From an uncultured Gammaproteobacteria bacterium (lineage in GTDB: Bacteria; Pseudomonadota; Gammaproteobacteria; Pseudomonadales; Pseudohongiellaceae): a DNA stretch of 45,400 bases. Positions 28,708 through 40,791 of this stretch are shown here, in pieces. Every line of letters begins with the position of its first letter. Position 1 is the first letter of the stretch. The stretch is from positions 1 to 45,400 of the forward strand of contig CAJWGN010000011.1 of assembly GCA_913031035.1 (NCBI GenBank), read 5' to 3'. A program made the translations under genes and the position numbers. The notes below the pieces were generated by a model. The model saw nothing but the letters and a program-made list of their open reading frames with translations, made no database searches and had not been told where the DNA came from.

Positions 28708-30221
28708 AATTTCTCAGTTTTGTTCGTTTCTCGGTTTGGTAAACGGCCCTTATTTTCTAATCTTTCACTGCATATCCAAATAAAGCCGTTGCCAGTGTCC
28801 CTTAGTTCTCACTAATCCTCAACTGCCCCAAGAAGAAAGAAATAATCGATGCGTGAACAGGTAACATCAAACACTGCGATCCCCAGACTTAAGGCACATT
28901 TCACATGTCACTGAACGATCCTATTTTCGGCACTTTGCGTCTAACTCAACCATAAATATTTCCGCAAGCACACTTATCAGACAACAGCTTATTACTAAGC
29001 CAGAATAAGCCTGAGCTCAACCACCTCTATGTTTTTCCTGCCATTACTTCATCCTATTCGATGAATCGCTTCGATTATAAAGTAGTAACGTTAGTAGCCT
29101 TTCCTGCTCTTTTTCTGTTAAGTGAGGATCGCCCGTGGTTAGCATGAAAAACAACATAACCCTTTTTCTGTTTTCGCAATAATAAATACCTACCTTATTT
29201 ATTTTTCTTATACGCAAATAAGCGATACCTCTCACTCAGAAGGGGCAGCGCTCAAAATACTCAAGCCATTTCCCTAATGATTTCCGCCGTGGATTTTCCC
29301 TACCGCCTTTAAACCATCCGAATAAAGTAATTCATCTTGCCATCGCTCTTCTATGTTTCAGTTTCATATTACGAGGGCTTGATCTTGAGCATATGGACGT
29401 CTTTCAAACTATAAAAATACTCGACAGCGGCCAAGGCAGAATTTTACTCATGGCATCCCTACAGGCGTCACTGATTTTTTATGACTATAGAGCCGTCGAA
29501 AACAACGTGTGGGCTTTAAAGGATTTCTGTTTCTCTCCTCTTTGCTCTGTTCTTTTATTTGCTTTTTTGATGCTGATGGTAAGGCCGGTATTGGACAAAA
29601 AAGGGTTAAAATAAGCCAACCCATGTTTTGCGAAGAACTTGCCGAAGCCAACGCCTATATGCTGAACTGTTTACCAGTCATATACCAAGCTGGCGATTAG
29701 GTTTATGAGAAAAACAGCATGCTTTCTTCAAAACTTCTAATCTTTATGAACCACCCTCATCGCTGGAGCAAAAATAGACTCATCTACTATCTAAGCCTTG
29801 ATAAGTTAAGCCATGTGCTAGAAAGAATTTCTGAACTTATTAGAGGAGTAAAAAATTTTTTCTTGACCGTCATGGCCAACCCGAATGAGTATGTACACCA
29901 GCAAAAATGGCATACCAACAGCTAATCTGGATACAGTGAGTGTATATCCACGATTGCCTCATTGGTTGATTACGATAGTGTTTAGAGGGCTCTAAATACA
30001 GGCCCATCGGAAACAGGCGGACCTCAAGTGACTTACCTGAAATAAATTACCCTGAAATAATTTCCCCTAATTAGGCTATCCTGAGCACAGCCAGCCTTCT
30101 AGAGTAACATTAAGTCGCTTTGGCACTAGCGGCGAGAGTCTTCTTCAAGTTACTCTTAACTCCGTATTGCTCAATTACTTAAGCTTTCGTTCTTTAACCT
30201 AGAGTGTAGATTAGTTCCGCT
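28708..30221. other. 1.5-kb gene-poor region
   Basis: No gene is recognisable. Several frames of 60-75 codons exist (minus 29044-29235, plus 29393-29614, 29509-29700 and 29719-29925), but none has a convincing start, domain or neighbour link, and the last three partly overlap. The pile-up of partial frames between 29390 and 29930 is compatible with an old degraded gene on the plus strand. There are no clear RNA genes or strong hairpins. Confidence 0.45.
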
Positions 30222-30449
30222 GTGAGCGATTCCATAGAACATAACATGCCTGATGTCCGCGATGGTCTTAATGCCAAAGAGCGGGTCATCCTTTATTGCC
30301 TGCATGAGGCGCAGAAGGAATTCCCCAATCGCAATGTGCCAACAGCATTACTTTATGGGCGAGTTGTCGAGCAGATGGATATGAGCGAAAATGAATTTCA
30401 AAGCATTCTGTCGAGGATTGCGGGGCTAACTAGAAATACTCATCTGTAA
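30222..30449 (+). CDS. Small conserved-looking hypothetical protein
   Basis: A 75-residue acidic-to-neutral protein, GTG start, with the look of a helical regulator or adaptor: LNAKERVILYCLHEAQKEF, VPTALLYGRVVEQMDMSENEFQSILSRI. The alternation of helices and the segment NVPTALLYGRV followed by MSENEFQSIL resembles a winged-helix half, but I cannot assign it. No good ribosome-binding site precedes GTG 30222; ATG 30246 is an alternative. It lies about 185 bases before the acyl-CoA synthetase gene on the same strand. Coding is plausible from composition only. Confidence 0.5.
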   Translation: MSDSIEHNMPDVRDGLNAKERVILYCLHEAQKEFPNRNVPTALLYGRVVEQMDMSENEFQSILSRIAGLTRNTHL

Positions 30450-30544
30450 TTGTTGAGCCATTTCAGTTGACCTTTATAAGAGACCGTATTAGCTTCTTGA
30501 CGTGTGCAATTAGAATCTTAAAGTAGTGGTATTTTACACTGCTG

Positions 30545-30602
30545 CACTTTTTGACCCATTTTTTAGACCCTTTTTTTAGATCCACTTTCTAGACCCACTT
30601 TA
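30545..30602. repeat. Four imperfect T-run/AGACCCA repeats
   Basis: Four consecutive imperfect units of about 14 bases (T run followed by TGACCCA, AGACCC, AGATCCA and AGACCCA) lie 30 bases before the acyl-CoA synthetase start. They are in the leader, so could be slippage-prone or regulator-binding direct repeats. Confidence 0.65.
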
Positions 30603-30634
30603 GTGAAGTCGCGAACAACTCGAAGGATTTAACC

Positions 30635-34845: not shown

Positions 34846-35832
34846 TTATTGACTGTCTTCATATTCCTGGCGGCGAGCGCCCGCTAATATCCCCGGAAGA
34901 GCATAGTTGCCTTCATGACAGGCATACTCGTAAATCTGGTCTTCCACTGCATTCATGGGTAATTCACCTGTCCACGCCGTGGCGTAGTTCTCAGGATCAT
35001 CAATCGTGAATTGATATAAAAGAGTTGCACCATCAAGGCGAGAGAATCTCTCTGTCACTACGGCAGAAGACGACAAGTAAAAGAAATGCCGAAGGGCACC
35101 GCGTAAACCTTGTTGCGAATTAAAGTTAGTTGTCTCAACTACCAGCGTGTCATCTTCGTAATAGCCGATAGAGTCTCCTAGCCATTTAGGAATATCCGCA
35201 TGCTTGCTGTCACGCATTCTGACGATCCTAGCATCGTGATTCATTTCTGCCATGATCATGACGTAGTTTTCGGTTTGAACGATTTGCTTATGGTTGTTGT
35301 ACAAAACAGGCAGCATTGGAGGTCCACCTGTGGAGCCAAAACCAACGAGGCAGCGCTCGGCCATAGGTCGTGTTTCCGGACCTGCGTATTCGTCAATTTG
35401 AGCTCGACCACCGAAGATTTTTTGCAATGCGCCTTCAGCCCAAGGCAAGCGACCGTTAGCAGGTTCGACAATTATCGAAGTTCGAATTTCACCGTTAATG
35501 GTAGCCATGCGCTCACCAGGATCCATCCAAAAGGTATTGTATCCGCCAATAGCACCCTCTGCGCCGCCAACACCATCGATAAGATTTGTTAGGTAGCTAT
35601 CTCCAGTTTGGCCTATTCGCTCGGCTTCTTCTTCCGTGATAACCAGCTGATCGCCAAATTGCTCTCCGCGCTCCAACATAGTTACCGTGGCAATATTATA
35701 AACACCCTGCAGGTCAGGAGCGCCGAAACTGGTCTGAGGCACCTCATAATCTTGGGCCTGGAGTAGCCCGCAAAACAAGCAAGCGGCCAATAGAGTGGAA
35801 TGCTGAAAACTGATCGTAATATTGAATCTCAC
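34846..35832 (-). CDS. Exported protein of unknown function
   Basis: A 328-residue protein with a clear signal peptide (cut after LLQAQ, about residue 26) followed by TSFGAPDLQGVYNIATVTMLERG. The PDLQGVW/Y-type start is typical of a large, poorly characterised group of exported proteins abundant in marine gammaproteobacteria and Acidobacteria. I cannot name a fold or enzyme. The mature part is rich in Gly, aromatic and acidic residues and has only two cysteines (CLVGFG and YACHEG), which could form a disulfide. HDARIVRMRDSKHADIPKWLGDSIGYYEDDTLVVETTNF is the most conserved-looking block, consistent with a beta-rich fold. It is a single gene. Confidence 0.8.
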   Translation of the reverse strand: MRFNITISFQHSTLLAACLFCGLLQAQDYEVPQTSFGAPDLQGVYNIATVTMLERGEQFGDQLVITEEEAERIGQTGDSYLTNLIDGVGGAEGAIGGYNTFWMDPGERMATINGEIRTSIIVEPANGRLPWAEGALQKIFGGRAQIDEYAGPETRPMAERCLVGFGSTGGPPMLPVLYNNHKQIVQTENYVMIMAEMNHDARIVRMRDSKHADIPKWLGDSIGYYEDDTLVVETTNFNSQQGLRGALRHFFYLSSSAVVTERFSRLDGATLLYQFTIDDPENYATAWTGELPMNAVEDQIYEYACHEGNYALPGILAGARRQEYEDSQ

Positions 35833-36972: not shown

Positions 36973-37880
36973 CTAATACTCAATTGGATTTTGACTAACA
37001 TCGTTGCACATAATAACTGACGAAAAGCCTGAGCTCAGAAAACGGGCATACAGGGTACTCGTATCTAACCAGCCTCCGCTATATGAGTATACTTTTACTT
37101 CATCATATTCAAATACAAATTGTTCATTCGCGTGTAGGCGTCCATCGTCTTTTGGCTCACTGTTAGGCGTTAGAAATAGCATCATGATCGCTTCAGAGTG
37201 TTGACCGAGCTTAGGGCTGTAAAAATTCTGGTCCCATTTGAGCATATCACCCAGATTAGTATGGGGCCCGCCGTCACTAATCCAAAACAAGTTCGTCGTA
37301 TCAGTGACAAAACCTTCACCTCGGGACGTATAAACACTAGCACGCTTAGGAAGGACTTCAACGGGCTCATCGCTAAAGAATGTGTGGCTCATATTAAGCG
37401 GTTTAAACATCCGCTTGTCATAGAACCTCACGCAAACTTTCACCGGAAACAGGCTCAACCAATAAGGTAAGGATGATATTCACGATATTGCTGTATTCTA
37501 GTTTTTCTAAAGGCGGATTCTTTAAAGCTTGTGTTTTAACGAGACTGTAAAATTCTTCGTTGATTAAATGATCTTGGTTCCCTAGACGAAAAGAGCCTCA
37601 GCAAAAGAGCATAAATTGAGACCACCTTTAACTAGCTCGCCATCACTTCCTTTTGCCGTAATTAACTCATAGTCACCCATCCCAGCGACATGTCCGAGAA
37701 TCGCATTAATTGAAACTTCACTACCATAGCTTCTAAGTTCAGGGAGTCATTCTCGGATATCGCTATTTAAATTAAACTCATATTCTTCGGCCAGCAGTAA
37801 CACAGCCATAGCGGTAACTGTTTCGACACTGACCCCTGCCGGTGGACATGGGAGACATCTAGTTTCACACTCAGCTTCAT
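36973..37880 (-). pseudogene. Beta-lactamase-fold serine hydrolase, degraded
   Basis: The downstream 161 codons (36973-37458) are an open frame of the C-terminal half (FYDKRMFKPLNMSHTFF, LFWISDGGPHTNLGDMLKW, HANEQFVFEYDEVKVYSYSGGW). Upstream, up to about 37880, other frames give the N-terminal half: SVETVTAMAVLLLAEEYEFNLNSDIRE, then a TGA where a Trp is expected, then LPELRSYGSEVSINAILGHVAGMGDY and EYSNIVNIILTLLVEPVSGES. These are typical beta-lactamase-related serine hydrolase blocks. The gene has at least two frame changes and stops; the second-motif Tyr survives (EYSN), but the nucleophile region is broken. It probably makes no protein. Confidence 0.85.
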
Positions 37881-38102: not shown

Positions 38103-39074
38103 TTAAAACTTGGCATCTAATTTTTCAAGATACTCGGATACGTCCAATCCATGAGCGGCAAATCGCGCCTCTACGTTCCTTAGCCTTTCTATACTCCAAT
38201 AACTGTCTCCAGGCAGAGGAAAATCCAACACACTGCGCTGCAGCGGTGTACTACGACCGATTATAGACTCAACCTTTCCATAGTAGCTTTTTCTTGCGAA
38301 GCCTTCGTTCCAATGACAAACACCTCGTGCATCGGCACGTTTCCAAGCCAAGTTGTGCACTCGACGTAGTTTCCCAGCCACAAGCGGACGTCCTCTATGC
38401 CAGAGGTCGTGGCGGTAAAATAGAACAGTAGCAGGTTTGAATTGCACAACTTCTTCTCGCTCGTAAAGTTGTTGTCTAAGCTCATACGCCCTTGGATTGT
38501 TCTTTTTAAACCAACTCTCTACAGTGGCGCGGTCATTAAAAAAGGGATTAGCTGCTTGGCCTGGCATATTCACAAAGGGTGCCTGATATACTGGGTCATC
38601 TACTCCACGACGAGAAACATAGCCAGTTCCTCCTCCGGTTTCCTCAATGTCATCATAGTAAACAATCGCAGCAACCACATCCGGCGTATCCCACTGTGGA
38701 TGCAGCACAGTATTGTTACCGTAATCCATGTGCATTCGCTGATCAGTGTTTGCTTGAGCTTCGGGGAGGCCTTCAGCCACACCAATCTTAGGCCATAGAT
38801 CTGCCTGAATAAGTCGCACATCGGCGGTGCCCAGTAATTTCTGAGCCGCCACAATTAGCGGCTCGCAAAGAACTAGGTCGTCAAGGGCGTTTATAAAAGT
38901 AGGAAATTCGAATTCTTTGTCCGGAGTACCAAAATCTAGGTGGCTACTGTCAATTTGATCTAACGTAAAATTTGAATTTAACCACTCCAGCGCCGGTTCA
39001 GCTACGTGCCCGGGGAGCTGACAGATAACGGCTCCTTGTTCTTTCCATGTTTGAATTTGCGAGTTTGAAAGCAT
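38103..39074 (-). CDS. Phytanoyl-CoA dioxygenase (PhyH) family protein
   Basis: A 323-residue member of the PhyH branch of Fe(II)/2-oxoglutarate dioxygenases, which hydroxylate alkyl chains or small natural products. The iron facial triad appears as His-x-Asp in QRMHMDYGNN (about residue 114-116) and the distal His in LWHRGRPLVAG; the latter's Arg would contact 2-oxoglutarate. YYDDIEETGGGTGYVSR matches the region between them. The C-terminal tail after about residue 290 is extra. No pathway neighbour names its substrate. It is monocistronic and divergent from the selenoprotein-candidate unit. Confidence 0.88.
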   Translation of the reverse strand: MLSNSQIQTWKEQGAVICQLPGHVAEPALEWLNSNFTLDQIDSSHLDFGTPDKEFEFPTFINALDDLVLCEPLIVAAQKLLGTADVRLIQADLWPKIGVAEGLPEAQANTDQRMHMDYGNNTVLHPQWDTPDVVAAIVYYDDIEETGGGTGYVSRRGVDDPVYQAPFVNMPGQAANPFFNDRATVESWFKKNNPRAYELRQQLYEREEVVQFKPATVLFYRHDLWHRGRPLVAGKLRRVHNLAWKRADARGVCHWNEGFARKSYYGKVESIIGRSTPLQRSVLDFPLPGDSYWSIERLRNVEARFAAHGLDVSEYLEKLDAKF

Positions 39075-39466
39075 GGTTTAGTCGACCAATAAATTATTAA
39101 ATTTGCCCAGCCTCCTATTTTTTCAGGGCTAGATTCAGGACTTTAGCTTAATATGTTCAGCGAATAAAATAGCGTATATTACTCTTTTTAGCATCCTGCT
39201 TTTAGTGACTAGCGCTTGCTGGGAACCCAAGCCCAATCACGCCTTTAATAAATAGGTCTACTCATGATTACGGGTTTTTGATTCTGAGCTCGGGCAGCCC
39301 TGTTGATTCTTGCGAACAACCATACGCCGACTAAGGCTTTAACCGCTTTTTTGCTATAGTTGCCCATCTCAATTAATCTAACCCCAACAGTGCTTCATGG
39401 CTTGAATGAAAATCAAGTTAACAAACAGTAAGACCGCCTCTGCAACACTTATTAATAGGACTCAAT
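39075..39466. other. Intergenic, promoter region
   Basis: About 390 bases between the divergent PhyH and DsbA/FrnE-like genes, so it must carry both promoters. I see no gene. An AGGA at 39457-39460 is the ribosome-binding site of the next gene. Confidence 0.55.
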
Positions 39467-40081
39467 GTGAAAAAAATTACCATCGACATATTCACCGACT
39501 ACGTGTGACCCTGGTGTTATCTCAGTACCGTGAGTATTGATAAACTTAAAGAAAATTACCCATTGGAGACACGGTGGATTCACTTTCCATTGCATCCAGA
39601 AACGCCAGCTGAGGGTAAATCCTTAGCAGAACTTTTTGCGGGCCGAGATATATCGGAAGTTAAAAAGCGCCTGCAAGATTTAATGGCGGAAGCTGGGCTG
39701 CCCTATGGCAATCGCACCCATACCTTTAACAGCCGGCTCGCTCAGGAACTTGGAAAATGGGCAGACACCCAAGAAGGCGGGGATAAGATACATGATCTGC
39801 TGTATCGAGCTTACTTTGTCGACAATGTAAATATTGGCGACGTTGATGAACTGGTAAAAATCGCTGCTGCCGCTGACCTAGATGAGAGTGCCGCACGAAA
39901 AGTAATCGTAGAGCGCCAGTTTGAAACTGAGGTGGATGAAGACTGGAAGCGGTCCCGGGCGATTGGAGTGACTGGCGTGCCTACCTTTTATGCAAACGAT
40001 ATGGCTGTGGTGGGTTGCCAGCCTTATGACGTTTTGGAAAAATTTGCCAAGCATTTATTAGAGCAACAACAGACAACCTAG
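39467..40081 (+). CDS. DsbA/FrnE-family oxidoreductase with in-frame UGA (candidate selenoprotein)
   Basis: A thioredoxin-fold protein of the FrnE / HCCA-isomerase branch of the DsbA family, 204 residues if the UGA is read. GTG 39467 has AGGA six bases upstream and gives K-K-I-T-I-D-I-F-T-D-Y-V, a normal first strand. The next codon is TGA (39506-39508), followed by P-W-C-Y: the family motif is CPWCY, so the stop replaces the first active-site cysteine (residue 14), with Cys17 retained. The remaining 190 codons are intact, including the helical insert and the cis-Pro loop GVTGVPTFYANDMAVVG. It is followed 35-45 bases later by the halohydrin-dehalogenase-like gene. Alternatives are a nonsense mutation or restart at GTG 39530, which would lose the active site. 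Confidence 0.7.
39506..39536 (+). promoter_or_regulatory. Candidate bacterial SECIS hairpin after UGA
   Basis: Downstream of TGA 39506-39508, CTCA (39521-39524) pairs with TGAG (39531-39534) around the six-base loop GTACCG. With one bulged T (39520), TA (39518-39519) can pair with TA (39535-39536). The loop starts with G and lies 16 bases after the UGA. Known bacterial SECIS elements have a small apical loop with G in its first two positions, about 16-37 bases from the UGA. The stem is short, so this is suggestive only. Confidence 0.4.
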
Positions 40082-40125: not shown

Positions 40126-40791
40126 ATGGAAAATCGCACTGCGCTAATTACCTGTGCCGACCGCTATATGGGAGGCGTTATAAAGGACAAGTTTGAATCT
40201 CTTGGTATTAACGTTATTACCGGCGGTTATCCAATGGAGTCTCAGGAATCAGTTGAGGCGTTAATTGCTTCAGCCGGCGAGATTGATATTTTGGTTGCCA
40301 ACCTTGCTGAGCCGCCTATGACTGGTCCGGTTCAAAATATCCAAAATGATGATTGGCAAAAGCTATTTGATTCACTGGTGAATCCTCTCATGTACTTGGT
40401 TAGGGCTATCACCCCACAGATGGTTGAGCGTGGTTCTGGCAAAATTATAGGTGTGACAAGCGCAGCGCCATTAAAAGGAATTGCCAACAACGCAGCTTAT
40501 TGTGCCGCTCGGGGCGCACAAAATGCGTTTCTAAAAGCAGTAGGGTTAGAGCTTGCGCGCAATAATGTTCAAGTTAATGCTATCGCACAAAACTATATTA
40601 ACAATGATACTTACTATCCCGATGAGTTTCTGGGGAATGCAAAATTTCTAGATCACGTCAAAAGAAATGTGCCAACGAACAAAATCGGTGCTGCACAGGA
40701 GACTGCAGAGCTAGCCGCTTATCTAGCCAGCGAAAAGTGCAATCATATGGTCGCTCAAGTCATCCCGCTGTCCGGTGGTTGGGTGACGTAG
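40126..40791 (+). CDS. Halohydrin dehalogenase-like SDR protein
   Basis: A 221-residue short-chain-dehydrogenase-fold protein that looks like a halohydrin dehalogenase, which turns vicinal haloalcohols into epoxides with release of halide and no cofactor. The N-terminal Gly-rich NAD(P) motif is replaced by T-C-A-D-R-Y-M-G (Thr9 to Gly16), matching the family motif T-x4-F/Y-x-G. The catalytic triad is Ser112-Tyr125-Arg129, matching S-x12-Y-x3-R, with Arg in place of the SDR Lys. TSAAPLKGIA, AIAQNYINNDTYYPDEF, VKRNVPTNKIGAAQE and the ending LSGGWVT resemble HheC. I choose ATG 40126; an upstream in-frame TTG at 40117 sits too close to GAGG (40110). Same strand as, and 44 bases after, the DsbA/FrnE-like gene. 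Confidence 0.8.
   Translation: MENRTALITCADRYMGGVIKDKFESLGINVITGGYPMESQESVEALIASAGEIDILVANLAEPPMTGPVQNIQNDDWQKLFDSLVNPLMYLVRAITPQMVERGSGKIIGVTSAAPLKGIANNAAYCAARGAQNAFLKAVGLELARNNVQVNAIAQNYINNDTYYPDEFLGNAKFLDHVKRNVPTNKIGAAQETAELAAYLASEKCNHMVAQVIPLSGGWVT

Follow-up and report, generated by a model that had tools for sequence, protein, structure and literature searches.

The stretch of DNA analysed here (45,400 nucleotides; hereafter the window) contains an otherwise complete gene for a FrnE-type protein of the DsbA family, in which an in-frame TGA replaces the first cysteine of the CPWC active site (Table 1). From the GTG at 39467 to the TAG ending at 40081, translation gives exactly one internal stop, the TGA at 39506-39508, which is codon 14. 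The preliminary description of this DNA had reported an intact frame preceded by a ribosome-binding site, which is probably TAGGA, and its placement of the TGA at the first cysteine was confirmed by translation. Of 18 candidates for read-through in the window, the one at 39506 alone resembled the active site of a protein, a judgement made by eye for the remaining 17. We refer to this gene as Sec-FrnE.

Table 1. Features of the Sec-FrnE locus, with positions in the window.
Feature	Position	Strand	Basis or description
TAGGA, probable ribosome-binding site 5' of GTG 39467	39456..39460	+	Sequence; inference
Sec-FrnE coding region	39467..40081	+	GTG to TAG; 204 residues, U14; active site U14-P-W-C17
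UGA codon, very probably read as selenocysteine (Sec)	39506..39508	+	TGA in 110/110 loci; Cys in 15/15 more distant relatives
Probable bacterial SECIS hairpin	39522..39540	+	RNAalifold (82 distinct sequences), pair counts, low synonymous variation
SDR-like gene with both halohydrin dehalogenase motifs	40126..40791	+	44 bases downstream of Sec-FrnE; motifs, PDB, co-occurrence

Several other features were observed in the window. A 161-codon open reading frame at 36973-37458 (-) is matched by the Beta-lactamase (serine hydrolase) profile over that profile's later half alone, at 20.3 bits against a cut-off of 27, and is probably a gene remnant. The open reading frames at 34846-35832 and 38103-39074 (-), of 328 and 323 codons, gave no Pfam hit at thresholds up to E 0.1; the one at 38103-39074 lies beside Sec-FrnE and did not turn up in the regions flanking the 80 named relative loci. 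Between two open reading frames with Pfam matches, about 1.9 kb (28708-30634) holds no open reading frame of at least 100 codons and is possibly a pseudogene region.

What kind of protein does the gene encode? The read-through product matches the Pfam family DSBA (PF01323) over residues 5-192 (8.6e-33), and the PDB entries nearest to it in sequence are Deinococcus radiodurans FrnE (4.6e-19) and SCO1869 (1.4e-11). An AlphaFold model, built from 28 sequences with cysteine substituted for Sec (pLDDT 91.2, pTM 0.87), has as its best fold match the same D. radiodurans protein (DR0659; PDB 5cnw, 5xwh), with a TM-score by query of 0.88-0.92 and the CPWC motif at the corresponding position; the predicted fold also resembles the glutathione-using HCCA isomerase and kappa-class glutathione transferase. 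By sequence and by fold, the protein thus belongs to the FrnE subfamily of DsbA, here with the motif UxxC. Three weak matches were obtained in NCBIfam, none above its own cut-off, and a phage collection gave no match to the gene. The D. radiodurans protein differs in that it has cysteine instead of Sec and is longer, with a C-terminal CXXXXC motif that is absent from the 204-residue Sec-FrnE. This second motif has been proposed to regenerate the active site, and it occurs in many, but not all, FrnE proteins, being absent from those of D. maricopensis and S. roseofulvus (PMC8945050).

How widespread is the TGA? A relative of the protein at E 1e-20 or better is carried by 82 of 137 genomes of the family. 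Within the genus of the window, 67 of 84 genomes yielded 68 matches, all of which contain an in-frame TGA; the exact codon position was checked in 30 of these 68 and in the named loci, and one genome (G102) has an additional TAG, beyond residue 199. The aligned codon is TGA in all of 110 loci, namely 30 from the family genome set, the window's own gene included, and 80 named loci, the two sets sharing genomes. These loci reach down to about 55% identity, and the TGA is the sole stop in each aligned stretch; because the named loci are the best 80 of 275 relatives, the other 195 may include cysteine forms. By record title, the 80 loci include Pseudohongiella, SAR86, OM182 and other gammaproteobacterial bins, and also Rhodospirillaceae, other Alphaproteobacteria, one Betaproteobacteria bin and one Thermoanaerobaculia bin. 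One locus titled as a Klebsiella pneumoniae metagenome bin (L113) groups with the Sec-FrnE of the Betaproteobacteria bin (L109), and its title probably reflects a mistake in binning or naming.

The alignment of homologs proposed in the preliminary description separates UGA in the close relatives from cysteine in the more distant ones. Fifteen matching genomes from three other genera have no stop and a cysteine codon at this position (14 TGC, 1 TGT). Thirteen of them, from two sister genera (L134-L146), encode proteins about 42-50% identical to that of the window, with CPWC at the same place and a TGC codon there; the cysteine form of the g6 genomes is about 30% identical. A tree built from 83 Sec copies and 15 cysteine copies places a single branch between the two kinds; this branch is weakly supported (58/65), and a long-branch warning applies. 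No close cysteine form was found in the remaining 17 of the 84 genus genomes, 15 of which give no match at E 0.001. Another (G077) contains broken FrnE fragments, one of them with two TGA (G077:C185:20217-21435, -), adjoining a stop-free halohydrin dehalogenase-like gene, and appears to represent a loss of Sec-FrnE in progress; G074 has a 24% match without a stop, which is probably another DsbA protein.

In the protein database, 117 of the 120 best relatives listed (8000 candidates scored) cover at most 90% of the query, and among eight database sequences, P0001 and P0118 are two of those whose first residue corresponds to codon 22 or lies close to it, within the SECIS hairpin. Gene callers thus truncate this family. 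One database sequence from a short contig (P0041) has cysteine at the Sec position and is otherwise of the Sec type downstream; it may be a chimera or a real cysteine form.

The genome from which the window derives (3.96 Mb, 307 contigs, 92% complete) holds tRNA-Sec, selA, selB and selD, the set of genes that the preliminary description had proposed looking for. The tRNA-Sec scores 62.3 bits against a cut-off of 47 and is called SeC(tca) by ARAGORN, and selB (399.7 bits), selA (570.6 bits) and selD (278.5 bits) exceed their family cut-offs. The selD sequence contains no in-frame TGA and has a cysteine at what we take to be its active-site position. It sits in an open frame of 773 codons (L017:803-3121, -, contig C114), the long N-terminal part of which, before selD, looks NADH dehydrogenase-like by eye. 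Among the 67 genomes with Sec-FrnE, selA is present in 59 (in G089, only in pieces); of the eight others, four have selB and six have a tRNA-Sec over the cut-off, and two genomes, G115 (85% complete) and G128 (65%), have Sec-FrnE but none of selA, selB and tRNA-Sec. In the two sister genera with the nearer cysteine form, selA is found in 2 of 13 genomes and is absent from 11, and both g6 genomes, with the distant cysteine form, have it. All 17 genus genomes without Sec-FrnE have selA, and the gene is therefore dispensable.

A conserved hairpin follows the UGA closely. From the 110 loci, one of which was removed because it contained N, the TGA and the 48 bases after it gave a gap-free alignment of 82 distinct sequences, identical stretches being counted once. 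Unaided, RNAalifold folded this alignment into a 7-bp stem (columns 17-23 with 29-35), which corresponds to 39522-39528 paired with 39534-39540 around the loop CGUGA (39529-39533). To this stem we added by eye an eighth pair (columns 24 and 27; 39529-39532). Across the eight pairs, 99.7% of 656 cells are paired and 12 cells carry paired changes, a count that is partly circular because the extra pair was picked from the same sequences. The pairing fraction, the number of paired-change cells and the covariation score were each reached by 0 of 500 shuffles; the number of pairs with paired changes (2) and of further pair types (7) are weaker measures, reached by 19 and 58 of 500 shuffles, respectively. 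When the partner strand was slid by 1-3 columns, at most 47.6% of the cells were paired. Eight pairs form in 80 of the 82 Sec sequences and seven in the other two, whereas the 15 cysteine relatives from other genera form only 2-6 of the eight and do not keep the hairpin.

Columns 24 and 27 are occupied by C-G in 71 sequences, U-A in five, A-U in four, G-C in one and another combination in one. They fall at the third positions of codon 21 (Thr) and codon 22 (Val or Gly), where the protein leaves the base free to vary, so that protein constraint does not explain their covariation. A two-base loop would be strained; the extra pair may therefore form only in the complex with SelB. It differs from the published N1-N2 pair, which spans one base more (PMC13188914).

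The hairpin starts 13 bases after the UGA, with 20 nt between the UGA and the loop, and the second loop position (column 25; 39530) is G in 82 of 82 sequences, followed by U in 69 and G in 13. These features agree with the placement rules of the published bSECIS model, in which a G occupies one of the first two loop positions, 16-37 nt after the UGA (PMC13188914). The same predictive model sets a free-energy limit of at most -7.5 kcal/mol, and the review that presents it states that it misses some putative bSECIS elements (PMC13188914). The window hairpin misses this limit, at -5.6 kcal/mol (40 nt; z -0.08) or -6.2 kcal/mol (51 nt), and of five relatives folded, L088 (-7.6), L104 (-10.9) and L128 (-8.0) pass, while L103 (-7.1) and L112 (-6.7) fall short. 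The z-scores of the seven folded stretches (-0.98 to -0.07) lend the hairpin no energy-based support, and Rfam gave no match in the window at its gathering thresholds. A bacterial SECIS check, as the preliminary description had proposed, thus succeeds in finding a conserved stem-loop at the right spacing and fails on the energy of the window copy, -5.6 against -7.5 kcal/mol.

The preliminary description had drawn a different hairpin, with a G-initial loop, at 39521-39534 (CTCA/TGAG), which overlaps bases of the one described above. It can be drawn in this copy, but it is broken in part of the relatives: 85.4% of 328 cells are paired, without paired changes, and 500 of 500 shuffles pair as many. 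The SECIS element is thus likely to be the conserved hairpin at 39522-39540 rather than this one.

The same segment stands out in a codon analysis of 83 distinct complete copies. Over codons 15-25 (10 usable), normalised synonymous entropy is 0.317, against 0.873 afterwards (118 usable), the lowest of 175 eleven-codon windows starts at codon 15, and codons 19, 20, 23 and 24 are nearly frozen among the copies with the commonest residue. For selection on the protein, 262 of 3403 pairs of Sec copies have dS under 1.5, with a median dN/dS of 0.202 and a maximum of 0.511. The dN/dS comparison proposed in the preliminary description therefore reveals purifying selection among the relatives; for the window copy, dS is under 1.5 in 0 of 82 comparisons, so that its own dN/dS is out of range.

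We considered that the TGA might be a recent nonsense mutation at the active site of a decaying cysteine gene, as the preliminary description had left possible. Pseudogenes had been seen in the window at that stage, and the copy of one relative, G077, is broken, with two TGA in one fragment. The same codon, however, is TGA in all 110 loci, as the only stop and down to about 55% identity, and an in-frame TGA is present in 68 of 68 genus matches; the low dN/dS (median 0.202 where dS is under 1.5, as in 262 of 3403 pairs) and the conserved hairpin also speak against decay. Because the TGA is conserved across the genus, nonsense mutation is refuted as a general explanation, and we consider it very improbable.

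Equally little probability attaches to a UGA read without selenium, as tryptophan or by simple read-through. The database copies P0005 and P0007 do show W at this position, but probably as a result of calling under a code in which TGA is Trp. In the window, TGA is the ordinary stop of 5 of 19 genes checked, the 15 more distant relatives all have cysteine and not tryptophan at the position, the Sec machinery is complete, and the hairpin is conserved. The real product might instead begin at the internal GTG at 39530 (codon 22) and lack the active site, in keeping with the open reading frame list of the window, which gives 39530-40081, and with the database entries P0001 and P0118, which begin at that codon. 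Such a protein would lose the first strand and the catalytic motif, yet codons 15-21 are conserved in the 83 copies (P, W, C, L and T are invariant, Y is present in 95% and S in 96%), and the GTG itself is kept in only 58 of 83, being replaced in the others by GTT, GTA, GTC or a Gly codon. We give this explanation next to no credence.

Conservation of the UGA and of the hairpin, the presence of Sec machinery and the predicted fold, all established by computation, together with the purifying selection among relatives, support the selenoprotein reading of the preliminary description. We are confident that the gene encodes a FrnE-type oxidoreductase of the DsbA family with Sec at the attacking position, the UGA being very probably decoded by means of the hairpin at 39522-39540 as a SECIS element. 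In the mechanism that we propose, this hairpin would act in the mRNA as a bacterial SECIS element, to which SelB would bind, and Sec-tRNA delivered by SelB would decode the UGA at codon 14. The selenolate at U14 would be the nucleophile that attacks disulfides of substrates, or other electrophiles, and the intermediate so formed would be resolved by Cys17. The reaction would probably take place in the cytoplasm, as FrnE is a predicted cytoplasmic thiol oxidoreductase; a FrnE mutant of D. radiodurans shows increased sensitivity to cadmium and to diamide (PMC8945050).

Selenoproteins of this kind have been listed before. A DsbA-like UxxC selenoprotein assigned to COG2761 was reported from the Sargasso Sea in 2005, with nine sequences (PMC1088965); the preliminary description had likewise mentioned DsbA-like examples from marine bacteria. 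'DsbA 1', with 63, appears in the GOS table of 2008 (PMC2398784), DsbA-like selenoproteins in sequenced genomes in a 2006 study (PMC1794560), and a DsbA-like selenoprotein in reviews of 2022 (PMC9312934) and 2026 (PMC13188914, as 'DsbA-like protein form 1'). The frnE gene of D. radiodurans is assigned to COG2761 as well (PMC1978522). The Sargasso Sea and GOS proteins, computer predictions like ours, are described in these sources as sharing the DSBA family, the UxxC motif, marine bacterial origin, a predicted SECIS element and COG2761 with Sec-FrnE, and they are likely to be the same subfamily. New with respect to the earlier lists are a genome with Sec machinery, the genus-wide distribution, the aligned SECIS elements and the neighbouring gene. 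In the open-licence literature, we found no paper that pairs Pseudohongiella or OM182 with selenocysteine, nor one that pairs a halohydrin dehalogenase with a selenoprotein.

The SDR-like gene downstream of Sec-FrnE is possibly its operon partner. It encodes T9-X4-Y-X-G and S112-X12-Y-X3-R, and its PDB relatives include two entries named only SDR (1.4e-53, 1.5e-49) and, less close, Halohydrin epoxidase B (HheB; 5.2e-38). The Sec-FrnE loci supplied 32 relatives of this protein on the same strand and with at least 50% identity; S-X12-Y-X3-R is found in 30 of them, and the first motif, with Tyr, in 28. Halohydrin dehalogenases are characterised by T-X4-F/Y-X-G and S-X12-Y-X3-R (PMC11976700, PMC4989007).

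In the 84 genus genomes, both genes are present in 53, Sec-FrnE alone in 14, the SDR-like gene alone in two and neither in 15 (Fisher p 4.7e-7, ignoring kinship). One of the two with the SDR-like gene alone is G077, with its broken FrnE alongside; partial SDR matches were found in G083 (with two TAA) and G124. Of the 53 SDR-like genes, 44 lie within 400 bases downstream of Sec-FrnE on the same strand and one at 401, five are 3.8-4.2 kb away, and three are on another contig; in two genomes examined (L149, L150), the gap of 3.8 kb or longer is occupied by a putA-like gene in the opposite orientation, which offered no hint of function. Among named loci with room downstream, the SDR-like gene is adjacent in 31 of 40 nearer ones (L049-L095, at least 63% identity, and L110) versus 2 of 38 others, and the pairing is therefore a trait of the genus and its near relatives. 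Farther downstream are a CoA-transferase III gene and, in two relatives examined, acyl-CoA synthetase-like genes.

What might the two genes do together? Other physiological functions of halohydrin dehalogenases have been held possible (PMC4989007). We tentatively suggest, as an idea less likely than not, that Sec-FrnE and the dehalogenase-like gene might form one functional unit in this genus. The dehalogenase-like enzyme would make or open epoxides or halohydrins, and the selenoenzyme, given the resemblance of its predicted fold to the glutathione-using enzymes named above, would handle the reactive product or the thiol stress that results. If true, this would provide a physiological partner for halohydrin dehalogenases and a substrate class for the selenoprotein.

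A gene that looked like a pseudogene thus becomes a well-supported selenoprotein of a kind already known, and the family yields a set of 82 distinct SECIS sequences in which paired changes occur. That a halohydrin dehalogenase-like gene so often accompanies Sec-FrnE may, speculatively, offer a testable hint at the role of the selenoprotein.
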